Below, piece after piece: positions 4,514 through 63,990 of a stretch of DNA of 64,000 nucleotides. Below the pieces are notes generated by a model. The model saw only the letters and a list, made by a program, of their open reading frames with translations. It was not told the origin of the DNA and ran no database searches. The position numbers and the translations under genes were made by a program. Position 1 is the stretch's first letter. Every line of letters begins with the position of its first letter. This DNA is from Verrucomicrobiaceae bacterium E54 (GTDB lineage: Bacteria > Verrucomicrobiota > Verrucomicrobiia > Verrucomicrobiales > Akkermansiaceae), in the NCBI GenBank assembly GCA_022548915.1, contig JAKZES010000021.1, positions 1 through 64,000 on the forward strand. The letters are read 5' to 3'.

Positions 4514-7182
4514 GCCTTCACCTCCTCCACCATTTCCGCGAGCGGCCGGCCGCAGCCGAGCAGCGCGAAATCGTCATACTGCACCCGCTCCGCCGGCGGC
4601 CAGAAGACCCGCGCCTTCACCCGCCCGATCACCCACTCCGCACAGGCCAGCGCCGAGTCGCGGTCGGCCTCGGAAAACCCTTCCCACAACGACACGCCCA
4701 CCGCGTCCTCGGTTGCGCCGAGGACGACATAGCCCATCGCGTCCACCTCGCCGAACTCCATCGAGTAAATCGGCACCTGAAGGTTCGTCCAGCGCACCGG
4801 CTTGCCCTTGGCGTTGGTGCCGATCACCGCCTCCACCCCCTCAAGGTGCGGCGGCAGCACCGTCGCCGCGGTCACGCCGACCCGGTGATCCTTCTCGACG
4901 TCCTTGAGCGCGTTGTAGGTCTTGTAGTCGAGCACCCGGCGGCGGCCGTCGTCGTGACGGTCGATGCGGTCGACCTTGCCGACCAGCGTCACGCCCGCGA
5001 CCTCGCGCTCGAATTTTTCCTCCACCGCCTCGACCCGCCAGCCCGCGGCCCGCTCGCAGGCCTGCAGCCGCGCGAACCACGACAGTCGCTGCCGCGCTCC
5101 CTCGACCTGGATCCGCACCGCCAGCGGCGGGGTGTCGCCGTGTTTCTCCGCGACCACCCGCTCCAGCTCGGCATGCAGCCATTCCTCCAGCGCCCCGGAT
5201 TTCGAGAACTCCCGCACCTCCTCGTGGCGGCCCCAGTTCTCGAGGACGGCGTGCACCACGTTGCCGAAGTCCCGGGCATTCCACTCGACGCGTTCCGGCT
5301 CCCGCGAATACATCGCGACCCCGTGCTTCAGATAGAACCGCAGCGGACACGCCAGGTAGTCGCGCAGCGCCGTCACGCTCAGCCGTGGCTTCAACTCGAC
5401 CGTCGGCACCCGCCACGCCCAGTCCTGCTCCCATTTCATCCCCGCGTCCGGCGGCTCGATTTCCGCGAAAAGCAGCTCCACCCGCCGCGCCAGTTCCTCG
5501 CCCGAGGCCGCCAGCAGCAAGCGCGACGGCAACAGCGCGTCGCCGTCGGCGCTCGATTTCGCCAGCAGCAGGTCCACCCGGCCGCCCTCCTTCCGCGCCT
5601 CCGTTAGAGCCGTCAGCACGTAGGCATCGCGCGCCGCGCGACGCGCATCGGTCGTCAGCCCGAGCAATTCGCGCACGCCCTCCGAAAGCCACGCATCGGT
5701 CGCCGGCGCCGCCGGCACCCGGCCCTCGTTCATCCCGCACACCACCAAGTGCGCCCCCGGCTCATGCAGCAACTCCAACCACCCCTGCACGTCCACCACG
5801 CGCCCGTCGGGTGCTTCCTTCACTCCCTCGGAAAGCCCGGCCACCAGCAAATCAATCCAAAAGGCCGCGTCGCGCCGCACCCGGCCGATCACCGGCTCCA
5901 TCGCCGTCAGCCAATCGCGCACCTCGTCCCATTTCCCCGCCGCATCCACCCGCTCCAGCAGCCGCCCCATCGCCTCCCCGAACGGCTGCCGCAGAAACGC
6001 TCCCCGCACCGCCCCCAGCCGCTCCATCGTCTCCGCCGCCAGCGGTGGCAGCGGCATCCTGCCGCAGGCCGTCTCAGCGGCTTCCAGCCGCTGCACATCC
6101 TCCCCCGTCCTCACCAGCCCGCGGTCCCGCATCGCCGAAAGCTGCTCCACCCGCCGCATCCGCATGCCACCCGTCAGCGCCGCCGTTTCCTCCATCCCCA
6201 GCAAATCGATCGCCGTCGCCACCTCCGGCCGTGCCAACCACGCCCGCCACAGCGAAAGCCAGCCGCGCACCCGCGACACCGCCCCGCCGGCCGGATTGTG
6301 CACCGTCCAGCCCTCGCGCCCGAAGGCCCGCACCAGTTCCTCCGCGGTCTCCTCATCCGCCGAGCCCAGCGCCAGCTCGTCCGACGCCGTCCCCGCCGCC
6401 GCCACCCGCGCCACCGCCTGTCGCGCCTGCTGACGCGGATCCGCCGTCAGTTCCACCGAGCCCGCCTCCGGCCACGCGATCGCCCGCTCCTTCCAGGATT
6501 CAGGATCCGGCCTCCCAAATTCGTCGAATGCCTCGCCCTCCGGCGCGGCAACCAGGCAAACCACCTCGGCCCCCCGCAGCCGACGCACCGCCGCCTCCGG
6601 CAAATCCGGCACCCCGGCCAGCACGATCCGTCCCTCCGGCGTCTCGTTCATCCGCTGCTCCAGTGTCCGCGAGCGCCCGACCAGCCCCCACTTCGAAAGC
6701 ATCGCCTCCTTTACCCGCCACAACTCACCCAGCTCCCGCCAGCGCTCGCCCTCCACCGACTTCCCGAGCCGCCGAGCCGCCACATCGGGCGTCAGTCCCG
6801 CCTCCTGCAAGGCCCGCTCCAGCGACATCAGCGAGTTCGCCAGCGGCAGCGCCCAGCCGCTCGCCTCATCTTGTCCCGGCGGGCTCGGAAACACATTCGC
6901 GTAGCGTCCCCAGTCAACAACCCCCTCCAGCGCCTCCACCCAGGCCAACACCTCCGCCGCTGGCGGCGCCGCCTGCTCGGTCCGGATCAACGCCCCCGGC
7001 GTCACCACCTTGGGTGCCAGGCATCCGCCCCGCTCCGCCAGCGCTTCCCGCAGACGCCGGCCCGACTGAGCCGTCGGCACCACCACCAGCATGCCGGGCA
7101 GCTCGCCACGACGCTCCCAAAGCCAATCCACCAGCAAGCCCAGAAGCGGCTCGTCCCAGCCGAGGAATACCCGTCCATCCAT
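4510..7182 (-). CDS. addB: AddB-like PD-(D/E)XK nuclease/inactive helicase subunit
   Basis: The 890-residue protein starts with MDGRVFLGWDEPLLGLLVDW followed by MLVVVPTAQSGRRLREAL, the layout of AddB/RecC-like inactivated helicases without a clear Walker A. The C-terminal nuclease is evident: SVTALRDYLACPLRFYLKHG near residue 599, FGNVVHAVLENWG, then LVGKVDRIDRHDDG and VLDYKTYNA near 748. It is the partner of AddA, encoded first in the operon and overlapping it. The four cysteines that hold the AddB iron-sulfur cluster are not recognisable: a Cys occurs at the ACPLRF site, but the C-terminal C..C.....C cluster is missing. The start has AGAAGG a few bases upstream. Confidence 0.85.
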   Translation of the reverse strand: MDGRVFLGWDEPLLGLLVDWLWERRGELPGMLVVVPTAQSGRRLREALAERGGCLAPKVVTPGALIRTEQAAPPAAEVLAWVEALEGVVDWGRYANVFPSPPGQDEASGWALPLANSLMSLERALQEAGLTPDVAARRLGKSVEGERWRELGELWRVKEAMLSKWGLVGRSRTLEQRMNETPEGRIVLAGVPDLPEAAVRRLRGAEVVCLVAAPEGEAFDEFGRPDPESWKERAIAWPEAGSVELTADPRQQARQAVARVAAAGTASDELALGSADEETAEELVRAFGREGWTVHNPAGGAVSRVRGWLSLWRAWLARPEVATAIDLLGMEETAALTGGMRMRRVEQLSAMRDRGLVRTGEDVQRLEAAETACGRMPLPPLAAETMERLGAVRGAFLRQPFGEAMGRLLERVDAAGKWDEVRDWLTAMEPVIGRVRRDAAFWIDLLVAGLSEGVKEAPDGRVVDVQGWLELLHEPGAHLVVCGMNEGRVPAAPATDAWLSEGVRELLGLTTDARRAARDAYVLTALTEARKEGGRVDLLLAKSSADGDALLPSRLLLAASGEELARRVELLFAEIEPPDAGMKWEQDWAWRVPTVELKPRLSVTALRDYLACPLRFYLKHGVAMYSREPERVEWNARDFGNVVHAVLENWGRHEEVREFSKSGALEEWLHAELERVVAEKHGDTPPLAVRIQVEGARQRLSWFARLQACERAAGWRVEAVEEKFEREVAGVTLVGKVDRIDRHDDGRRRVLDYKTYNALKDVEKDHRVGVTAATVLPPHLEGVEAVIGTNAKGKPVRWTNLQVPIYSMEFGEVDAMGYVVLGATEDAVGVSLWEGFSEADRDSALACAEWVIGRVKARVFWPPAERVQYDDFALLGCGRPLAEMVEEVKA

Positions 7183-51852: not shown

Positions 51853-52512
51853 TTAGATCGACTCCTTCTTCGCCTTGCCGCGGGCCGCGTAGATCTGGTC
51901 GCGGGTGCGGAGTTGGGAAAGGGCCTTGAGGGTCGCCTTGACCACGTTGGCGTGGTTGGCGGAGCCCAGCGACTTGGCCAGCACGTCACGGATGCCCACG
52001 GCCTCGCAGACCGCGCGCACCCCGCCGCCGGCGATGATGCCGGTACCGGGGGAGGCGGGCTTCAGCAGCACCTTGCCACCACCATACTCGGCGTAGCTTT
52101 CGTGAGGAATCGTGCCATCGGCCAGATTCATCGGATTGAGCGACTTGCGGCCGGCCTCACTCGCCTTGCGAATGCAGTCGGCCACCTCGTTGGCCTTGCC
52201 GAAGCCGAGGCCGACCTTGCCCTCCTTGTCGCCGACGACGACCAGGGCGGAAAAGCTGAAGCGGCGACCGCCCTTCACGACCTTGGCGCAGCGGTTGATG
52301 AAAACGACCTTCTCGGTCACTTCCTTGCCGTCGACCATGGCCGGCGCGCGTTCTTCCCGGCGAGGCCCGCGGCCGCGACCACGACCGCGGCCCTGTCTTG
52401 CTTCAGATGGTCCAGACCTGGCGGCATCACCCGAGTCACCAGCGGCGGCAGGCGCTGCAGGCTGGTCCGGTTTGGGCGAGGAGGCGGGGGGTGTTTCGTT
52501 GGTAGTCACCAT
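51853..52512 (-). CDS. rpsE: 30S ribosomal protein S5 with N-terminal extension
   Basis: 219 residues, about 50 longer than the usual 165-170. The S5 core starts near residue 63 ([23 protein letters not shown]), with [16 protein letters not shown] and the C-terminal domain [21 protein letters not shown]. The extra N-terminal segment is a Pro/Ala/Gly-rich, then Arg/Gly-rich stretch ([17 protein letters not shown]). The domain order is intact, so function in decoding accuracy is expected. The gene stands between rplR and rplO. Confidence 0.96.
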
Positions 52513-52539
52513 GACGATGGATTTGCGCTTGTCTGGAAT

Positions 52540-52896
52540 TTAGAACTGGAGGCCGGCTTCACGCGCGGCGTCGGCGAGGGCCTTGATCTTGCCGTGATAC
52601 AGATGGCCACCGCGGTCGAAGACCACGGCGCTGATGTTGGCCGCCTTGGCGCGCTCGGCGACAAGCTGACCGACTGAGGAGGCACAGGCAACATTCGATG
52701 CCGACTTCTCGACGCTTTTGTCGAGCGTCGAGGCCGAAGCGAGGGTCTTGCCGGCCTCGTCGTCGATCACCTGGGCGTAGATGTGCTGATTGGAATAGTG
52801 GACCGCGAGACGGGGGCGTTCGGCGGTGCCCTCGACTTTGCGACGAATCCGCTTGTGGATCCGGCGACGCACTTCCTTGCGATTCAATTGACTCAT
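52540..52896 (-). CDS. rplR: 50S ribosomal protein L18
   Basis: 118 residues with the L18 signatures [38 protein letters not shown] and [24 protein letters not shown]. It binds 5S rRNA. Length and position (after rplF, before rpsE) are the standard ones. Spacing is 20 bp from rplF. Confidence 0.97.
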
Positions 52897-52916
52897 GACT
52901 CGTGGATGTTTGCGGA

Positions 52917-53456
52917 TTACTTGGCGACGCTCTTGCCTTCCTTGCGGCGGACGCGCTCGCCTGCGTAGCGCACGCCCTTGCCCTTGTAGGGCTCCGGCGG
53001 ATAGAAGCTGCGGACTTCGGCCGCGAACTGCCCGACCATCTGCTTGTCGATGCCTTCCACCTTGATCTTGGTGTTGTCGGCGACGCTGACGGTGAGCTCG
53101 GACGGGATCGGGTGCAGGATCGGGTGCGACTTGCCGAGCGCGAGGTCCAGGGCCTGGCCCTTGACCGCGGCACGCATGCCGACGCCCTGGATCTCAAGCT
53201 CCTTGACGAAGCCATCGGTGACGCCGGTGATCATGTTGTTGATCAGGCTGCGCACGGTGCCGTGGAGGGCGCGGTGCTCGCGCAGCTCGGAGGCGCGGGA
53301 GACGACGACCTGGCCGTCCTCCTCGGCGACCGAAACGCCCTTGGGGAGGTCGAGGTCGAGTTTCCCCTTGGGTCCCTCGACGGCGACACTGCCGTTTGAA
53401 ATATTCAACTTCACCTTGTCGGGCAAGGCGATGGGTTTGAGTCCAACTCGTGACAT
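52917..53456 (-). CDS. rplF: 50S ribosomal protein L6
   Basis: 179 residues: [19 protein letters not shown] at the start, [14 protein letters not shown], and the C-terminal [24 protein letters not shown] are L6 signatures. It contacts the factor-binding site of the large subunit. Order rpsH-rplF-rplR is conserved. Confidence 0.97.
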
Positions 53457-53483
53457 GGTATCGGTTCCTTTCTCGGGTTGGGG

Positions 53484-53882
53484 TTACCAGACGTTGGCGA
53501 GGATCTCTCCGCCGAGACGCTGGCGCCTGGCGGTGGCTCCGGACATCACGCCCTTCGAGGTCGAGACGACCGCGATACCGAGTCCGTTGAGGACACGCGG
53601 AATGTCATCGGCCCCGGCATAAACGCGGCGGCCCGGCTTGGAAACACGCTTCAGATCGGTGAGCACGGAGCGTCCGTCGACGTAGCGCGCCTTGACCTTG
53701 ATCTCGGGAAACTTCTCGGTGGTGACCACCTCGTAGCCCCAGATGTAGCCCTCTTCCTGAAGGATCTTGGCGATGTCGGCCTTGATCCGCGAATAGGGCG
53801 CGGTGAACTCCTCGTTTCCGGCCCGGCAGCAGTTTTTGAAGCGGGTCAGGAAATCGGAGATGGGATCGGTGAGAACTGCCAT
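53484..53882 (-). CDS. rpsH: 30S ribosomal protein S8
   Basis: 132 residues starting MAVLTDPISDFLTRFKNCCR. YVDGRSVLTDLKRVSKPGRRVY and the C-terminal GIAVVSTSKGVMSGATARRQRLGGEIL are S8 signatures. The frame is open further upstream inside rplE, but the ATG at 53882 gives the family N-terminus. Between rplE and this gene are 32 bp, so rpsN (S14) is not present at its usual place. Confidence 0.97.
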   Translation of the reverse strand: MAVLTDPISDFLTRFKNCCRAGNEEFTAPYSRIKADIAKILQEEGYIWGYEVVTTEKFPEIKVKARYVDGRSVLTDLKRVSKPGRRVYAGADDIPRVLNGLGIAVVSTSKGVMSGATARRQRLGGEILANVW

Positions 53883-53914
53883 TTTCTTGTAAGCTGAAGT
53901 TGCGTCGGAGGGAC

Positions 53915-54493
53915 TCAGGCGGCGGCGCCTTCCTCGGTGGATTTGGTGGTTTCGCGGAACGGCATGCCGATCTCCTTGAGCAGCGCGCGGCCCTCGTCGT
54001 CGGTGGTGGCGGTGGTCACGACGATCAGGTCGAAGCCGATCTGACGCTTGATCTGGTCGAGCTCGATCTCGGGGAAGATCGACTGGTCCGGGAAGCCGAT
54101 GGCGAAGTTGCCGCGGCCGTCGAAGCCCCTCGGGCTGATGCCGCGGAAGTCGCGGATGTTCGGCGCCGTGACGTTGATGAAGCGGTAGAGAAACTCCCAC
54201 ATGCGCTCGCCACGCAGGGTGACCCTGGCACCGAGGGGCTCCCCGGCGCGCAACTTGAAGTTCGCGACCGCCTTCTTCGAGAAGGTGATCGACGGCTTCT
54301 GGCCGGTGATCTTGGCGATTTCGATGACGGCATCGTCGACCGCCACCTTGCGGTCGGGCTCGTTGCCGAGGCAGGTGGTCAGGACGACCTTCTCGATCTG
54401 CGGAACCTGGTGGGGATTGGTGTAGCCGAGCTTCTCCTTGAGAGCCGGCACCACCTTGTCCAGGTAGTGTTGTTTCAGTACTGGTGTGCTCAT
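53915..54493 (-). CDS. rplE: 50S ribosomal protein L5
   Basis: 192 residues: LKQHYLDKVVPALKEKLGY, QVPQIEKVVLTTCLGN, RAGEPLGARVTLRGERMWEFL and GFDGRGNFAIGFPDQSIFPE are all L5. It binds 5S rRNA and contacts tRNA. A structured 67-bp gap precedes it on the minus strand. Confidence 0.97.
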   Translation of the reverse strand: MSTPVLKQHYLDKVVPALKEKLGYTNPHQVPQIEKVVLTTCLGNEPDRKVAVDDAVIEIAKITGQKPSITFSKKAVANFKLRAGEPLGARVTLRGERMWEFLYRFINVTAPNIRDFRGISPRGFDGRGNFAIGFPDQSIFPEIELDQIKRQIGFDLIVVTTATTDDEGRALLKEIGMPFRETTKSTEEGAAA

Positions 54494-54560
54494 TTTTTCA
54501 GCGGGTCAGCGCTTTGGTTGTGGCGCTTAAGCGCGGGCCGGACCCCGACAGGGTCGGGAC
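54494..54560 (-). promoter_or_regulatory. Structured spacer between rplX and rplE
   Basis: The 67-bp spacer holds a CCCGAC/GTCGGG hairpin (54544-54549 with 54553-54558) and a perfect palindrome GCGCTTAAGCGC (54523-54534). In Escherichia coli S8 represses the spc operon by binding RNA at the rplE start; a comparable role here is only a possibility. Confidence 0.35.
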
Positions 54561-54785
54561 TCAGCCCAGTTTCTTGACGTTGGAGATATGGATGGGGGCG
54601 TCTTCCTCGATGATTCCTCCATCGGGATGGTTCTCGGAACGGCGGACGGCCTTCTTGACCTTGCGCGCACCTTCGACGACCACTTGGCCCTTGGATGCAT
54701 TGACGAGCATCACGGTGCCGCGCTTGCCCTTGTGGTTGCCGGCGATCACTTCGACTTCGTCGCCTTTCTTGACGTGGGTCTTCAT
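54561..54785 (-). CDS. rplX: 50S ribosomal protein L24
   Basis: 74 residues, a short L24: [20 protein letters not shown] is the KOW motif, followed by [19 protein letters not shown] and [11 protein letters not shown]. It is an assembly initiator of the 50S subunit. E. coli L24 is about 104 residues, so the C-terminal extension is missing. Confidence 0.95.
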
Positions 54786-54811
54786 GGGAAAACGGTGGGA
54801 TGGGATAGGAA

Positions 54812-55177
54812 TCAGAGGACCTCGGGAGCGAGGGAGACGATCTTCATGAACTGCTTCTCGCGAAGCTCGCGGGCGACCGGTCCGAAGATGCGGGTGCCGC
54901 GCGGATTGTTGTCCTTGTCGATGATGACGATCGCGTTGTTGTCGAAACGCAGGATCGAACCGTCGGAGCGGCGGATCGGCGCCGCCGTGCGGACGACCAC
55001 CGCCTTGACCACCGTGCCCTTCTTGATCGAAGCGGTGGGGATGGCATCGCGGACGTGGGCGGTGATGATATCGCCGACGTCAGCGCTGCGGGAGCGCTTG
55101 CCGAGGACGCCAATCATCTTGGCGGAACGGGCACCGGTATTGTCGGCGACCGAGGCGAGGGATTCCATCTGGAGCAT
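54812..55177 (-). CDS. rplN: 50S ribosomal protein L14
   Basis: 121 residues: [40 protein letters not shown] and [19 protein letters not shown] are L14 signatures. It is in the standard order before rplX. Upstream lies the longest spacer inside the operon (107 bp). Confidence 0.97.
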
Positions 55178-55186
55178 GGCAGTAGT

Positions 55187-55284
55187 GGGGTAAATGCTGA
55201 AACTTTGAAAACTAGAACGCTGAAACTGGAATTGATGCCGGACTGAGTGATTTCAGCATTTCCGATTTTCAGCTTTTGCTGGAA
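55187..55284 (-). repeat. Inverted-repeat-rich, AT-rich spacer between rpsQ and rplN
   Basis: AATGCTGAAA near 55193 and TTTCAGCATT near 55253 are inverted partners and can close a hairpin of about 70 nt; a further TTTTCAGC and GCTGGAA pair follows. The base composition contrasts with the GC-rich genes on both sides. Similar TTTCAG words recur at 60945-60972. Confidence 0.45.
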
Positions 55285-55554
55285 CTAGTGGCTGAGGACC
55301 TCCGCGAGTTTCCAGCACTTCAACTTGGAGATCGGCTTGGTTTCGACGATCCGGACCTTGTCGCCGACGGCCGCTTCGCCGTTCTCGTCGTGGACGTAGT
55401 ACTTCTTGGACTTCTTGACGATCTTCTTGAAGGCCGGATGCGGAACGCGGGCGACGTGCTCGACGACGATGGTCTTGTTCATCTTGTCGGACACGACCAC
55501 GCCGACGCGGGTCTTGCGGAGGTGCGGACGGCTGTCCTGCTGGGTCTCGCTCAT
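55285..55554 (-). CDS. rpsQ: 30S ribosomal protein S17
   Basis: 89 residues: KTRVGVVVSDKMNKTIVVEH, the KYYVHDENGEAAVGDKVRIVETKPISKLKCWKL pattern and ending LAEVL are S17. It binds the 5' domain of 16S rRNA. Order rpmC-rpsQ is standard; the spacing to rpmC is 28 bp. Confidence 0.96.
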   Translation of the reverse strand: MSETQQDSRPHLRKTRVGVVVSDKMNKTIVVEHVARVPHPAFKKIVKKSKKYYVHDENGEAAVGDKVRIVETKPISKLKCWKLAEVLSH

Positions 55555-55582
55555 GGCTTGGGAGTGATGGGATGGAATCGGT

Positions 55583-55786
55583 TCAGGCCTCGCGGCGGCG
55601 TGCGTTGAGGTAAGTCATGGCCCGGGCGGTGTCGCGGCGGACCTGCCGGATGCGGGCCGAGTTTTCAAGTTGGCCGGTGGCCTTCTGGAGGCGCAGGTTG
55701 AAGGCCTCCTCCTTGAGGTCGCGGATGCGGGCCTCGAGCTCCTTGACGGTGAGCTCGGCGAATTCGTTGGTCTTGGTCGATGCCAT
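55583..55786 (-). CDS. rpmC: 50S ribosomal protein L29
   Basis: 67 residues of the helical L29 type: LTVKELEARIRDLKEEAFNL, FNLRLQKATGQLENSARIR and VRRDTARAMTYL. It sits at the exit tunnel. It lies between rplP and rpsQ. Confidence 0.95.
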   Translation of the reverse strand: MASTKTNEFAELTVKELEARIRDLKEEAFNLRLQKATGQLENSARIRQVRRDTARAMTYLNARRREA

Positions 55787-55809
55787 GATCGGAAAGCGGT
55801 TGGAGTCGT

Positions 55810-56229
55810 TCAGGAATGCGGATTGCGGACAACGAAGCGGGTCGGAACGCCCAGCTTGTAGGAGGCGAGGCGCATGGCCTCACGGGCCTGCGACTCGGGG
55901 ACCCCCGACACCTCGAAGAGCATGTTGCCGGGACGCACCACGGCCACCCAGGCATCGACGGCGCCCTTGCCCTTACCCATCCGGGTTTCCGGGGGACGGC
56001 GGGTGATCGACTTGTGCGGGAAAATCCGGATCCAGACTTTCCCCTTACGCTTGAGGTAACGGTTGATCGCGATACGGCAGGCTTCGATCTGGCGGTTGGT
56101 CATCCATCCGCGACCGAGGCATTGAAGTCCGAAGTCACCGAATGCGACGGTCGTGCCGCGCTGGGCATTACCGGCGCGGGAGCCGCGGTGCGACTTCCGG
56201 AACTTCGTGCGTTTGGGCATCAAAGGCAT
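55810..56229 (-). CDS. rplP: 50S ribosomal protein L16
   Basis: 139 residues: [59 protein letters not shown] and [20 protein letters not shown] are L16. It contacts the A-site tRNA and 5S rRNA region. Start may be the ATG at 56220 (MPKRTK). Normal length. Confidence 0.97.
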
Positions 56230-56273
56230 GGCTTGGTCCTCCTAGGGGTAGGTTGTCGTTTGAAAACAGGGCT

Positions 56274-56972
56274 TCAGGCGGAAGGCGCGTTGTTGCGGGG
56301 GCGGCGCGGGCGGCGCTCCACTCCCTGCGGCAGGGCACCCTTGTCGGCGTCCTCCTTCTTGTTGATCCAGCATTTCACCCCGATGATCCCGTAAACGGTC
56401 CGGGCTTCGGCGAAACCGTAGTCGAGAGGGACGCGGAGCGTCTGGAGCGGCACCTTGCCCTCGCGATACCACTCGGCGCGGGCGATGTCGGCGCCACCCA
56501 GGCGGCCGCCGCAGCGGATCCGGATGCCCTCGGCGCCGAAGTCCATGGTGGTCTGCACGACCCGCTTCATGGCCCGGCGGAAGGAGATCCGGCGCTCAAG
56601 CTGGACGGCGACGTTCTCGGCGACGAGCTGGGCGTCGAGTTCCGGCTTGCGGATTTCGATGATGTCGATCTTGACGTTGCCCTCCGAGCAGAGCTGTTGG
56701 AGGTCCTTGGTCATGCGCTCGATCTCCGAACCCTTGCGGCCGATGATGAGGCCGGGGCGGGAGGTGTGGAGGGTGACGCGGACGCTGGCCCAGGCACGCT
56801 CGATCACGACCTTCGAAAGGGCGGCGAACTGCAGGCGCTCCGAGAGATACTTGCGGATTTTCAGGTCTTCGTGGAGCTTTTCGGCGTAGTCCTTGCCGGA
56901 GGCATACCACTTCGAGCGCCAGTCCTTGTTGACGGCGAGACGGAATCCGATGGGATTGACTTTTTGGCCCAT
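56274..56972 (-). CDS. rpsC: 30S ribosomal protein S3
   Basis: 232 residues. [20 protein letters not shown] begins the protein; the KH domain carries [13 protein letters not shown] and the C-terminal domain [20 protein letters not shown] and [19 protein letters not shown]. It ends with an Arg/Pro-rich tail ([11 protein letters not shown]). It shapes the mRNA entry site. Gene order rplV-rpsC-rplP is standard. Confidence 0.97.
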
Positions 56973-56993
56973 GATAAATCGAGGTTCGGGAAA

Positions 56994-57383
56994 TCAGGCT
57001 TCTGCCTTGGGGGAAAGGTGACGTTTCTTCGGCTTGGCTTCCTCTTCCTCCGGAGTTTCCGCGAGGGTGACGAAGATGTGACTGGTGCGCTTGAGGATCG
57101 CGCCGGCGGAGCCGCGGGCACGGGGCTTGAAGCGCTTGAAGGTGGGACCCTCGCCGATGACCGCCTCCTTGACGTAGAGACTCTCGGCGTCGAGCGCGAA
57201 GTTGTTCTCGGCGTCCGCGATGGCGGTCTTGAGGGTCTTGTTGATCAGGAACGCGGCCTTCTTCGGGGTGAAGGCGAGAATGTCCAGCGCGGCCGAGACC
57301 GGCAGGCCCTGGATCTCACGGGCAACGTCACGCGCCTTCTTCGGCGACAGGCGGACGAACTTGGTGGTGCTCTTGACTTCCAT
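56994..57383 (-). CDS. rplV: 50S ribosomal protein L22
   Basis: 129 residues. Core signatures are FVRLSPKKARDVAREIQGL, ILAFTPKKAAFLINKTLKTA and the tunnel loop GPTFKRFKPRARGSAGAILK. After TSHIFVTL the protein has an acidic then basic tail (EEEEAKPKKRHL) longer than in most bacteria. It follows the inserted coiled-coil gene after 32 bp, whereas rpsS would normally precede it. Confidence 0.96.
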   Translation of the reverse strand: MEVKSTTKFVRLSPKKARDVAREIQGLPVSAALDILAFTPKKAAFLINKTLKTAIADAENNFALDAESLYVKEAVIGEGPTFKRFKPRARGSAGAILKRTSHIFVTLAETPEEEEAKPKKRHLSPKAEA

Positions 57384-57415
57384 CAGACGGTGGGATGAGG
57401 GGTTGGGAGAAAGGC

Positions 57416-58141
57416 TTATTCGATTTCGAGAAGGGCGATGTCGCCGAGGCGCACGGGACCCTGACCGGATTCCATAGACTCGACGAAGGCACCGGAGATC
57501 CGTCGACGAACGTCGGCGATGATCGCGGTGCCGTAGGGCTGGTCGCCTCGGTGGAGGCGGTAGGTGGATCCGATCCGGACGTCCTGCTGTTCCCCGATGT
57601 TGAGAACCAGCATGCCGCTTTCCGAATCGATGCTCAGCACCTTGGCCCGACGGGGCGAAACCGAGGTTTGAGCGGTGGGGGCGGGCTTCTGCCTGAAGCC
57701 GAGAACCGAGTCAAGCTCTCGCATGGCAGTTTCGACACGAAGCCGCGAATCGGGGTCCGAAGCGAGGGCCGTGCGGAGGAATTCCGACACGGCACCGGAG
57801 AGGCGCATCGCACCGGCTTCGAGGCCGGCGATCCGCTCGTTGAGGATCTGGATGTCGGCGGTCGCCTGGATCAGGCGTTCGTCGCCGCCATCGAGAAGGT
57901 CGCGGCCAAGGGCCTCGAGGTGGCTGCGGACCTGGGCCAGATGCTCGGAAGCCTCCTTTTCGGCCCGGTTCGCTTCGGCGATCCCCTGCTCCAACACCCG
58001 GTTCTGGATACGGAGTTCGGCGAGTTCCTTCTGGAGCGCCGCCATTTCCGGGTTCACCGTCTGCCCCTGGCACACGCTCAGCGCGAACCCCAGCCCGAGA
58101 AGGGCGGCGGCAGGGCGTCGGATGGCGTGGTTGAGGGACAT
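57416..58141 (-). CDS. Exported coiled-coil protein inserted in the S10 operon (function unknown)
   Basis: 241 residues starting MSLNHAIRRPAAALLGLGFA and continuing LSVCQGQ, a Sec-type signal peptide. Residues about 30-150 are a charged heptad-like coiled coil (MAALQKELAELRIQNRVLEQ, AEANRAEKEASEHLAQVRSH). Residues about 170-241 form a beta domain with pattern AKVLSIDSESGMLVLNIGEQ and IGSTYRLHRGDQPYGTAII, ending IALLEIE. Spacing to rpsS (22 bp) and rplV (32 bp) equals that of real ribosomal genes, so it should be cotranscribed. It is not a ribosomal protein and I do not recognise a named family. An in-frame upstream extension overlapping rpsS was rejected because it lacks any domain. Confidence 0.85.
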   Translation of the reverse strand: MSLNHAIRRPAAALLGLGFALSVCQGQTVNPEMAALQKELAELRIQNRVLEQGIAEANRAEKEASEHLAQVRSHLEALGRDLLDGGDERLIQATADIQILNERIAGLEAGAMRLSGAVSEFLRTALASDPDSRLRVETAMRELDSVLGFRQKPAPTAQTSVSPRRAKVLSIDSESGMLVLNIGEQQDVRIGSTYRLHRGDQPYGTAIIADVRRRISGAFVESMESGQGPVRLGDIALLEIE

Positions 58142-58163
58142 GAGGCGGACGGGTTGCGGAGGA

Positions 58164-58433
58164 TTACTTCTTACCGATGCCGCCGTGGGCGCGGAAGATG
58201 CGCGTCGGGGCGAATTCGCCGAGCTTGTGGCCGACCATGTTCTCGGTGACATACACCGGGACGAAGGTCTTGCCGTTGTGCACGGCGAAGTTCAGGCCGA
58301 CGAAGTCGGGCGTGATCATCGACTTGCGGCTCCAGGTCTTGATCGGCTTCTTGTCGTTGGTTTCAACGGCCTTGTCGATCTTCACCAGGAGCTTCTGGTC
58401 GACGAACGGTCCTTTTTTCAGGGAACGGGACAT
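58164..58433 (-). CDS. rpsS: 30S ribosomal protein S19
   Basis: 89 residues: [60 protein letters not shown] and [12 protein letters not shown] are S19 signatures. It binds S13 and the 16S head. rplB precedes it; the next gene on the strand is the exported coiled-coil gene instead of rplV. Confidence 0.97.
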
Positions 58434-58454
58434 GATGCTGGGAGTCGGATGGGG

Positions 58455-59294
58455 TTAGCGCTTCTTCTTGCGGCGTTCGACGATGAACGTGTTGGTCGGC
58501 TTCTTGTGCTTGCGGGTCTTCTGGCCCTTGGCGTGACCCCACGGGGAAAGCAGGTGCTGGCGACCACCACCGGACTTCGACTTGCCCTCGCCACCACCGT
58601 TCGGGTGGTCGACGGGGTTCATGCACATGCCGCGGACGGTCGGGCGCTTGCCCTGCCAGCGGCTGCGGCCGGCCTTGCCGGAAATCTCGTTCATGTGGTC
58701 GCGGTTGCCGACCTGGCCGATGGTGCAGTAGCACTGGGAATTGAAGCGACGGATCTCGCCGGAGGGCATCTTCACCAGCGACCACTCGCCTTCGCGGTTG
58801 GAAAGGACGGCCTGCTGGCCGGCGGCGCGGGCGACCTTGCCGCCATTGCCCGGGGTGAGCTCGATGTTGTGGATTGCGGTGCCGAGCGGGACCTTGCTGA
58901 GGGGCAGGGCGTTGCCCGGCTTCGGCGCGGCCTTCTCACCGGCGATCACCTTGGCGCCGACCTTGAGACCGACCGGCGCGAGGATGTAGCTCTTCTGGCC
59001 GTCCTCATACTGGAGAAGAGCGATGCGGCAGGTGCGGTTCGGATCGTACTCGATGCCGACGACTTCGGCCGACACGTCGTGCTTGCGGCGTTTGAAGTCG
59101 ATCATCCGGTAGTGGCGCTTGTGGCCGCCGCCGATGTGACGCGTGGTGATCCGCCCCGTGTTGTTGCGGCCACCGCTCTTCTTGAGCGGGGACAGCAGCG
59201 ACTTCTCCGGCTTCTTCTTGGTGATTTCCTCGAAGGTCGGAAGCGTCTTGTAGCGCTGGGGTGGCGTGAGGGGTCTGAACTCTTTGAGAGGCAT
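58455..59294 (-). CDS. rplB: 50S ribosomal protein L2
   Basis: 279 residues: [60 protein letters not shown] and [20 protein letters not shown] are L2. It is essential for peptidyl transferase structure. The ending IVERRKKKR is unremarkable. Standard order rplW-rplB-rpsS. Confidence 0.97.
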
Positions 59295-59338
59295 GGCTCG
59301 CTAAAGGGTTGTGCGGTTGGGCAGGTGAAAAATGTGAA

Positions 59339-59623
59339 TCAGACGAGGTCGAGGTTCTCGCCCTCCTTGAGGCGGACGATGGCCTTCTTCCAGTGGGCGG
59401 TGCGGCCTTGATCGGCCCGGCGGCGGCGTTTGGTCTTGCCGACCTGGTTGAGGGTGCGAACGGCCTCGACCTTCTTTCCGAGAAGGCCTTCGACAGCGCG
59501 CTTGATCTCAAGCTTGTTGGCCCGCGGATCAACTTCGAGGACGACCTCGTTGTTGAGTTCGTTGAGCATGGTCGCCTTCTCCGAGACGCGGACGTTCCTG
59601 ATGACTTGGTAAAGATCTTTCAT
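59339..59623 (-). CDS. rplW: 50S ribosomal protein L23
   Basis: 94 residues: MKDLYQVIRNVRVSEKATML, VLEVDPRANKLEIKRAVEGL, LLGKKVEAVRTLNQVGKTKR and KKAIVRLKEGENLDLV fit L23. It docks SRP and trigger factor at the exit site. Order rplD-rplW-rplB is conserved. Confidence 0.96.
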   Translation of the reverse strand: MKDLYQVIRNVRVSEKATMLNELNNEVVLEVDPRANKLEIKRAVEGLLGKKVEAVRTLNQVGKTKRRRRADQGRTAHWKKAIVRLKEGENLDLV

Positions 59624-59647
59624 GGTTCCGTTGGGGCTCGGGGGGGG

Positions 59648-60256
<609 letters not shown>

Positions 60257-60289
60257 GGTCGGAAATACGTTGGTGTTTCAGCTCGTGCC

Positions 60290-60934
60290 TCAGGCTGTCG
60301 GAGCCGGCTTCTTCTTGGCGGGGCGGATGGTCAGGTAGCCGTTCTTGTGGCCGGGGAGTGCTCCCGAAATGAGGATCACGTTGTCCTCGGGGCGGACGGC
60401 GACGACCTTGAGATTCTGGGTGGTGCGGCGGTCGGTGCCCATGTGGCCGGGCATCTGCTGGCCCTTCCAGACGCGGCCCGGAGTCGAACCCGCGCCGATG
60501 GCACCGGTCCGGCGGTGCATCATGGAGCCGTGGGTCTGCTTGAGACCGCCGAATCCATAGCGGCGGACCGCACCCTGGAAGCCGCGGCCCTTGGTGGTGC
60601 CGATCACGTCGACCCACTGTCCGGCGGAGAACAACTCGACGCCCGGATGCTCCTCGGGAACCTCCTCGTCGGCTCCGAAGCGGAACTCCTGAACGAGATA
60701 CTTGGCACCGGAACCGTGCTTCTTGAAGTGACCGAGGGCCGGCTGCGAGGTGCGACCTTCCTTCTTGTCGTCGTAGCCGACCTGGACGGCGTTGTAGCCG
60801 TCGCTCTCGACGGTCTTGCGCTGGATGATCGTGTTGCCGCCGACTTCGACGACCGTCACGGGAATCATCGACTGCGTCTCTTCGTCGAAGAGGCGGGTCA
60901 TTCCGAGTTTCTTACCTAGAAGTCCGAGGGACAT
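60290..60934 (-). CDS. rplC: 50S ribosomal protein L3
   Basis: 214 residues: [60 protein letters not shown] and [21 protein letters not shown] mark L3. The Gln that PrmB methylates in E. coli appears within RGFQGA. It starts the rplC-D-W-B series. Confidence 0.96.
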
Positions 60935-60944
60935 GGTGACTGGG

Positions 60945-60972
60945 GATTTGAGATTTCAGATTTGAGATTTCA
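60945..60972. repeat. 14-bp tandem direct repeat before rplC
   Basis: GATTTGAGATTTCA occurs twice in immediate tandem (60945-60958 and 60959-60972), in the 59-bp spacer between rpsJ and rplC. It is AT-rich against a GC-rich background. Similar TTTCAG words are in the rpsQ-rplN spacer. Confidence 0.7.
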
Positions 60973-60993
60973 GGATTGTTGCGGCGCAACTCC

Positions 60994-61302
60994 TCAGATG
61001 CGGATGGCGATGTCGACACCGGCCGGAAGGTTGAGCTTCTTGAGCTCGTCCACCGTGCGGGCGGTCGGGTCCAGGATGTCGAGCACGCGCTTGTGGGTGC
61101 GGATCTCGAACTGTTCGGCCGACTTCTTGTTGACGTGCACGGAGCGGTTCACGCTGAATTTCTCGATGCGGGTCGGAAGCGGAATCGGCCCGGCAACCTT
61201 GGCGCCGGTACGCTTGGCGGTCTCGACGATCTCCAGGGCGGAGCGATCGATCGCACGGTGGTCGAATGCCCGGAGGCGGATGCGGATCTTCTGGTTTTCC
61301 AT
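60994..61302 (-). CDS. rpsJ: 30S ribosomal protein S10
   Basis: 102 residues: [60 protein letters not shown] and [16 protein letters not shown] fit S10. It also acts as NusE in antitermination. It follows fusA after 37 bp; tuf, often placed between the two, is absent. Confidence 0.97.
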
Positions 61303-61339
61303 GACGTCGGAAGGAGTAGAGTTTGGTTGAAAGTACGAT

Positions 61340-63481
61340 TCAGCGTTCGTTGATGATTTGCTCGACGATGTTGGGCGGCACCTGCTCGAAGTGCGACGGG
61401 GTCATCGAATACGAGGCACGACCCGAGGAGAGGGTGCGGACCGCGGTGGAGTAGCCGAACATTTCCTTGAGCGGGACGGCGGCGTGGATCACGGCAAGCT
61501 TGCCCTTGGACTCCATCTCGCCGATCTGTCCGCGGCGGCGGCTCAGGTCGCCCATCACGTCGCCCTGGTAGTCGTCGGGCGTCGAAACCTCGACCCCCAT
61601 GATGGGCTCGAGCAGGACGGGCGAGGCCTTCTTGAAGGCGTCGCGCATGGCAAAGATGGCCGCCATCGTGAAGGCATTCTCGTTGGAGTCCACCTCGTGG
61701 AAGGACCCACCCAGAAGATCGACGTGAACGTCGACCACCGGATATCCGGCGACGATGCCGTTGGTCATCGCGTCCTGGATGCCCTTGATACAGGCGTTGT
61801 GAAACTCCTTGGGGATCTCGCCGCCGACGATCTGGTTGTCGATGGTGAGACCCTTGCCCTTTTCGTTCGGGCCGACGTGCAGACGGACGTGACCGTACTG
61901 ACCGCGGCCACCGGACTGCTTGACCAGCTTGCCCTCGCCACCGGCCTTGACGGTGATCGTCTCGCGGTAGGCGATCTGGGGAGCACCGGTATTGGCCTCG
62001 ACCTTGAACTCGCGACGCAGGCGGTCGACGATGATCTCGAGGTGCAGCTCGCCCATTCCCGAAATGATGGTCTGGCCGGTGTCCTCGTCGGTCTTGACCG
62101 TGAAGGTCGGGTCCTCTTCGGAAAGTCGGACGAGCGCGACGGCGAGCTTCTCCTGGTCGGCCTTGGTCTTCGGCTCGACCGCCATCGAAATCACCGGCTC
62201 GGGGAAAGTCGGCGGCTCGAGAACCACATCGTAACCGGAAGCGGCCAGAGTGTCGCCGGTCTGCACGTTCTTCAGCCCGACCATGGCGGCGATGTCGCCG
62301 GCGTAGCAGGCCTCGATGTCGGTGTGCTTGTCGGACTGGATCCGGATCAGGCGCCCCACCCTCTCGCTCTTGCGGGTGCGGGGATTGTAAACGGTGTCGC
62401 CCTTGCGGATGACACCCGAGTAAACGCGGAAAAAGACCAGCTTGCCGACGAACTTGTCGGCCCACAGCTTGAATGCCAGGGAACAGAACTTGCCGTCGTC
62501 GCCGGTCTTCACCTCGACCTTCTGCTCGGTGTCGTCCGGATTCATGCCATGGGCGGAACGGACGTCCAGCGGGCTGGGAAGGTAGTCGATGACGGCGTCG
62601 AGCAGGTACTGCACGCCCTTGTTCTTGAAGGCGGAGCCACCGGTGACCGGCACGATCTTGTTGGCGATCGTCGCCCGGCGGATGGCCGCCTTGAGGTCCG
62701 CCGCCTGAATCGGCTCCTCCATCACGAACTTCTCGCCGAGTTCGTCATCCACACCGGCGACGGTCTCGACCAATTCCTGGTAGGCCGCCTCGGCGGTCTC
62801 CTTGAGCCCGTCCTCGAGTTCCTTGACCTCGTAGGTGGAACCGAAGGTGGCATCGTCGACGTAGAGGACGGCCTTCTGGTTGACCACATCGATCTGGCCA
62901 CGGAGATTCTCCTCGGAGCCGATCGGAATGAGAACGCGCACGGCATTGACGCCGAACTTCTCCTTCACCTCCTTGAACACGCGGTCGAACTCGGCGCCGA
63001 CGCGGTCCATCTTGTTGACGAAGACGATCCGCGGAACCTCGTACTTGCTTGCCTGGCGCCAGACCGTCTCGGTCTGGGGCTGCACCCCGGCGACGCCGCA
63101 GAAGACGACGATGGCGCCGTCGAGAACCCTCAGCGAGCGCTCCACCTCGGCGGTGAAGTCGACGTGACCGGGGGTGTCGATGATGTTGATGCGCTGCTTC
63201 TCCTCCTCGAAGGCCTTGAAGACACCCTCTTCTTCACGCTGCCACCATTCGGCGGTGACGGCGGCGGAGGTGATCGTGATTCCCCGCTCGCGCTCCTGCT
63301 CCATCCAGTCGGTCGTGGCCGCACCGTCGTGCACCTCCCCGATCTTGTGGATCATCCCCGTGTAGAAGAGGATGCGCTCGGTGAGCGTGGTCTTGCCGGC
63401 ATCGATGTGCGCCGCAATCCCGATATTCCGAGTCCGCTCAAGCGGAAACGGGCGATCGGGATGGTTGACGGTGGCACTCAT
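61340..63481 (-). CDS. fusA: Elongation factor G
   Basis: 713 residues. G1 [19 protein letters not shown] near residue 25, switch [12 protein letters not shown]3 [21 protein letters not shown]4 [13 protein letters not shown] and the domain IV/V sequence [20 protein letters not shown] are present. It drives translocation with GTP. The length is normal for EF-G. Location between rpsG and rpsJ follows the str-S10 order. Confidence 0.97.
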
Positions 63482-63516
63482 CGGAGACGGGCGGTGAAGG
63501 AATCAGCGGAAAAGGA

Positions 63517-63990
63517 TCACCAGCGGAAGTGGGCGAAGGCGCGGTTGGCCTGGGCCATCTTGTGAACGTCGTCGCGCTTGCGGACCGAGCTGCCCTGGTT
63601 GTTGGCGGCGTCCTTGATCTCGTTGGCGAGGGCGACGTGCATCGGCGTGCCCTTGCGGCTGCGGGCGTAGCCGACGATCCAGCGCAGGGCCAGGGACTCG
63701 GAACGGTCGGCAGCCACTTCGAGCGGCACCTGGTAGGTCGCACCACCCACGCGGCGGCTCTTGACCTCGACCCGCGGCTTGGCGTTCTCGATCGCGCGGG
63801 TGACGACCTCGAGGGGATCGACGGTGTCGACTCCTTCGTTGGCCTTGTCGATGGCGGCGTAGACAATGCGCTCCGCGAGGGAACGCTTGCCGTCGCGCAT
63901 CACCTTGGCGATGAGGTGGCCGACGAGGGAACTGTCGTAGCGGGAATCGCGACGATCGGGCTTGTGGAAGACTCGCTTGCGGCGGGACAT
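63517..63990 (-). CDS. rpsG: 30S ribosomal protein S7
   Basis: 157 residues: MSRRKRVFHKPDRRDSRYDS, LVGHLIAKVMRDGKRSLAERI, PRVEVKSRRVGGATYQVPLEV and ALRWIVGYARSRKGTPMHVA are S7. It nucleates the 30S head. The start is ten bases from the window edge, so rpsL is expected just upstream, outside the window. Confidence 0.97.
   Translation of the reverse strand: MSRRKRVFHKPDRRDSRYDSSLVGHLIAKVMRDGKRSLAERIVYAAIDKANEGVDTVDPLEVVTRAIENAKPRVEVKSRRVGGATYQVPLEVAADRSESLALRWIVGYARSRKGTPMHVALANEIKDAANNQGSSVRKRDDVHKMAQANRAFAHFRW

Follow-up and report, generated by a model that had tools for sequence, protein, structure and literature searches.

A conserved gene for a predicted Sec-exported protein between rpsS and rplV in the S10 operon of Verrucomicrobiota

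Few gene orders in bacteria are as well conserved as the S10 operon, whose genes normally serve translation. Why, then, would a gene for an exported protein lie inside it? The question is raised by a stretch of 64,000 nucleotides from Verrucomicrobiaceae bacterium E54 (contig JAKZES010000021.1; hereafter the window), in which an exact open reading frame at 57416..58141 on the minus strand, here called gene X, encodes a protein of 241 amino acids that is predicted to be exported. Gene X is preceded by rpsS (S19; 58164..58433, minus strand; Pfam S19, 4e-38) and followed by rplV (L22; 56994..57383, minus strand; Pfam L22, 6e-36). The ORF coordinates place 22 bp between rpsS and X and 32 bp between X and rplV, exactly the spacings given in the original prediction, and both neighbors are now identified by Pfam. 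The window ORFs near X follow the standard S7, EF-G, S10 and spc order in a rpsG-fusA-S10-spc run that reaches from S7 to S5 (51853..63990, minus strand). Within the run, rpsN (S14) is absent between rplE and rpsH, where a gap of about 35 bp is found (window positions 53879-53915). An Rfam scan of the window returned no match.

A protein search found X in 55 of 57 relatives, always as a single match, and in 49 of 49 high-quality genomes; the two relatives with no match are represented by genomes that are 61% and 72% complete. With such a distribution, X is more than a chance reading frame. At the level of the order, both flanks are present in 53 loci, and each of these has one X ORF with a signal-like start between them, on the same strand; the rpsS-X-rplV order holds in 13/13 loci with organism names, which include Haloferula rosea, a Luteolibacter sp. 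and MAGs labelled Akkermansia, Prosthecobacter and Verrucomicrobiaceae. Full-length X also occupies this place in all 25 loci read at the class level and in five loci from other classes of the phylum. Profile searches matched 226 of 286 class genomes and 117 of 195 phylum genomes, tallies that count paralogues together with X, so the statement about position rests on the fetched loci, which were drawn from most families. The rpsS-X-rplV arrangement is conserved and X is not specific to one strain. Thus the proposal that X belongs to the S10 operon is supported by its conserved place, which extends well beyond the order.

The X protein begins with basic residues, a hydrophobic core and a small-x-small site before Q. 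A rule-based reading of 53 homologues places the predicted Sec signal peptide at residues 1-26 (58064..58141, minus strand), with cleavage between VCQG and QT. By these simple rules, a basic start is present in 53/53 homologues, a hydrophobic core in 52/53 and a cleavage-like motif in 51/53, and a lipobox in none of the 53. Export of X by Sec, as originally predicted, is strongly indicated by these features of the window protein and of nearly all its homologues. In one locus (L159:1043-1797), X upstream of rplV is split between two ORFs that overlap in different frames, and the first of them has a lipobox-like IAGC; this is either a frameshifted lipoprotein form or an assembly error.

The AlphaFold2 model of full-length X, built from 13 sequences, has a mean pLDDT of 70 and a pTM of 0.33, and a model of the C-terminal domain (C-domain) has a pLDDT of 86.4 and a pTM of 0.77. 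A single helix is drawn from residue 31 to 128 in the full model, with pLDDT falling to 62 near residues 81-90. Since 49 of 53 homologues share G79 and 23 of the 53 have a four-residue insertion at 86/87, beside the G79 region, we infer a helical hairpin. Helix 1 (residues 31-78; 57908..58051, minus strand; pLDDT 74-86) and helix 2 (residues 88-147; 57701..57880, minus strand), both taken from the AlphaFold2 model, would be joined by a turn at residues 79-87 (GRDLLDGGD; 57881..57907, minus strand), proposed from G79, the indel and the drop in pLDDT. The long coiled coil of the original prediction therefore stands as a helical region, which is probably a hairpin rather than a single long rod. 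The beta domain expected at the C terminus is likewise predicted by the C-domain model, as a six-stranded small barrel (residues 165-241; 57419..57649, minus strand) that comes closest in fold to the N-terminal barrel of F1-ATPase subunits. Over 80 residues, the full model also aligned (Z 10.9, rmsd 2.6) with one chain of the LPHT ring of the flagellum, although many barrels score alike; from the title of that structure, we read the chain as FlgT.

To which proteins is X related? Pfam and NCBIfam searches with full-length X gave coiled-coil noise and no model at cut-off, and most of what a full-length profile found among PDB sequences was of the same kind; TsaP came up at 0.046, and MreC at 0.34 and 0.69. 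The C-domain therefore had to be searched alone. A deeper C-domain profile matched TsaP with an E-value of 4.3e-7 and, weakly, a MexC-like adaptor (0.0037). FlgT_C (PF16538) gave weak matches to 12 of 30 C-domains; the best among the matches listed scored 25.1 and 25.4 bits, under the curated cut-off of 27 bits, and the X protein of the window had no match to this Pfam model. The C-domain is a remote relative of the barrels of periplasmic assembly proteins (FlgT_C, TsaP) that falls outside the curated families. No family could be named for X at the outset; this still holds at curated cut-offs, but remote kin have now been found.

Both relatives differ from X in important respects. TsaP (PDB 3jc8), a protein of the type IV pilus secretin, is exported and has a C-terminal domain related to that of X by profile; it also carries a domain named LysM by its depositors, which binds peptidoglycan. 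In contrast, X carries helices where TsaP carries LysM, and it is encoded in a ribosomal operon. Neither X nor any of 46 full-length members showed a LysM match, and X as TsaP is ruled out. The C-terminal domain of FlgT resembles that of X in its weak model matches and may share its fold, judging from the LPHT ring chain, but no flagellar context is seen around X. FlgT serves flagella and TsaP serves pili; no link of X to either is seen, which counts against reading X as a scaffold from its kinship with these two proteins.

A third likeness is to MreC, in which a helical part is likewise followed by a small beta barrel. X might accordingly belong to the elongasome as a periplasmic scaffold, acting in wall synthesis beside the genome's own MreC. 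Weak matches of MreC models to C-domains (8/30, best 1.7e-4; 2/30 in another search, best 2.5e-4) are consistent with this, as are membrane-anchored paralogues that share the X C-domain. The C-domain is perhaps remotely related to MreC. However, the best C-domain score among the matches listed for MreC (PF04085) was 15.1 bits against a cut-off of 28 bits, none of 46 full-length members matched the model at E 0.01, and TsaP is closer by profile. MreC also has a membrane anchor, whereas X has a predicted signal of the cleavable type and retains no anchor, and a true mreC is present in the genome (G000:C211:76786-77232, 118.6 bits) and in each of 18 relatives. That X is MreC itself is ruled out by the separate mreC genes and the lack of a full-length match at E 0.01, and we regard a role as an MreC-like factor as improbable. 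The membrane-anchored paralogues (L189-L204; for example L189:7671-8417, L198:7499-8248 and L202:7319-8910) occur in many Verrucomicrobiota genomes, some of which have two adjacent copies. Like X they carry the C-domain after a coiled coil, but they retain an N-terminal membrane helix and lie in other genomic places.

Is X expressed with its ribosomal neighbors? A promoter scan found no promoter-like site from 56900 to 58500, and terminator-like sites were no commoner than in shuffled sequences. The rpsG-fusA-S10-spc run is probably read as one or few transcripts. In an Akkermansia-like locus (L208), which we take to be from A. muciniphila ATCC BAA-835, exactly 15 genes run from rpsG to rplN, and X is number seven when they are counted from rplN. 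In this locus and a second one (L209), the ribosomal block stops at rplN, with no L24, L5 or S8 match in the next 6.7 kb (below position 6711); the spc half apparently lies elsewhere in these genomes. An A. muciniphila transcriptome study reports joint induction of the block Amuc_0294-0308 (PMC11480725). By gene count, the A. muciniphila orthologue of X is Amuc_0300, inside that block, and a listing of 0296-0297, 0301 and 0304 as ribosomal genes (PMC13335675) fits this count. Through the match of gene numbers, co-regulation of X with ribosomal genes in Akkermansia is indirectly supported. The cotranscription originally proposed is likely, given the short gaps, the absence of a promoter-like site in the scanned interval and the reported induction of the Amuc_0294-0308 block.

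Taken with export and the predicted fold, these observations point to X as a soluble periplasmic protein, exported by Sec, that serves as a scaffold or assembly factor and whose supply through the S10 operon keeps step with ribosome synthesis and growth rate, a reading to which we assign a probability of roughly 45%. Selection and codon usage bear on it in different ways. Between X and three close relatives, dN was 0.11-0.22 and dS 0.50-0.81, with a pairwise dN/dS of about 0.2-0.4; X is under purifying selection, milder than that on rpsS and rplV. In a comparison confined to window genes, the codon usage of X would place it within the top fifth of 26 other genes but below every ribosomal gene, and the latter argues against coupling.

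Codon usage unlike that of ribosomal genes is also a point in favor of the main rival explanation, in which X is a functional envelope protein that entered the S10 operon by chance, has no link to growth rate, and is kept in place since its relocation or loss would impair rplV expression. In one sub-clade X has been relocated yet retained, closing an MFP-RND operon in three genomes and lying beside other neighbors in two, and X has been lost elsewhere with a clean short gap, as such a frozen accident would allow. However, the position has survived across most of a phylum. Furthermore, six of the genomes read (L156, L158, L159, L164, L182 and L220) have an S10 operon that is split ahead of X, and in all six X is still directly upstream of rplV; the gene before X is tatC in two split-operon genomes (L156/L219 and L220). 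On balance we hold the frozen accident to be unlikely, though it carries appreciable weight.

The association with rplV, kept even in split operons, would in addition be expected if the translation or export of X, a secreted protein, regulated rplV in cis, as SecM does for secA. The C-terminal tail of X is variable in length and sequence and the folded domain is conserved, so a role as an arrest peptide is unlikely; X also persists away from rplV. We therefore give very little credence to a secretion monitor. In the genomes where relocated X closes the MFP-RND efflux operon (L214, L217 and L218), a MarR-type regulator gene lies upstream in L217. This arrangement, together with the weak profile match to the MexC-like adaptor, could mean that X is a periplasmic adaptor accessory to MFP-RND pumps, but it is confined to one sub-clade and X is elsewhere found with ribosomal genes or other neighbors; such a role deserves hardly any weight.

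Absence of X was traced on a tree of L2, S19, L22, S3 and L16 from 89 loci. In 22 loci, rpsS and rplV have no X between them and are mostly 21-60 bp apart. The label "no X" changed 8 times on the tree, compared with 19.8 times when labels were shuffled, and several absences are nested among carriers. In a reduced genome of 0.9 Mb (L169, G072), X is lost and the rpsS-rplV gap is 173 bp, and its close relative L128 retains X. The history of X reads best as a probably old insertion followed by several losses, on a tree that is unrooted and weak in its deepest branches. In one clade (L146, L148, L150, L151 and L163), a short X of about 130-190 aa from stop to stop, with the C-terminal domain only, occupies the same place. 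In another locus (L160:904-1477), rpsS and rplV are separated by 574 bp that contain no recognizable X and possibly hold a decayed copy or another insert. A search of genomes without X for its remnants gave only matches that we read as artifacts, since the ORFs used as queries run into rpsS. A second form, seen in some genomes that lack X in the operon (L147, L149) and also in L145, was rejected as a moved X because its members are membrane-anchored paralogues. Since several lineages have lost X, including the 0.9-Mb genome, X is not universally needed, and since it left the ribosomal genes in one sub-clade, its ribosomal coupling is not obligatory.

Returning to the growth-coupled scaffold, we envisage the following mechanism. 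Sec would carry X into the periplasm, where, as a soluble protein with a hairpin of helices and a small beta barrel like those of FlgT_C and TsaP, it may assemble with itself or with a partner in an envelope structure, as the relatives of the domain suggest. X may oligomerize or bind that partner through its barrel and so act as an envelope scaffold or assembly factor. Because its gene would be read together with ribosomal genes, more X would be made when more ribosomes are made, and this coupling to growth rate may be the reason for its position. X could then be an envelope growth factor, as the original prediction had put forward.

One would not expect the S10 operon of much of a phylum to keep a gene for an exported envelope protein, and in the article texts searched for the gene or the operon we found no description of X. 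Our results suggest that envelope building is tied to ribosome building in much of the Verrucomicrobiota, the gut bacterium Akkermansia included. That much of the phylum hard-wires envelope assembly to ribosome production by means of a dedicated periplasmic scaffold in the S10 operon is possible but doubtful; if true, it would be a growth-law coupling that we have not found described. The Akkermansia gene (Amuc_0300 by gene count), so far unstudied, is now directly testable, and X provides a genetically simple setting in which to ask how envelope growth is kept in step with the ribosome content of the cell.
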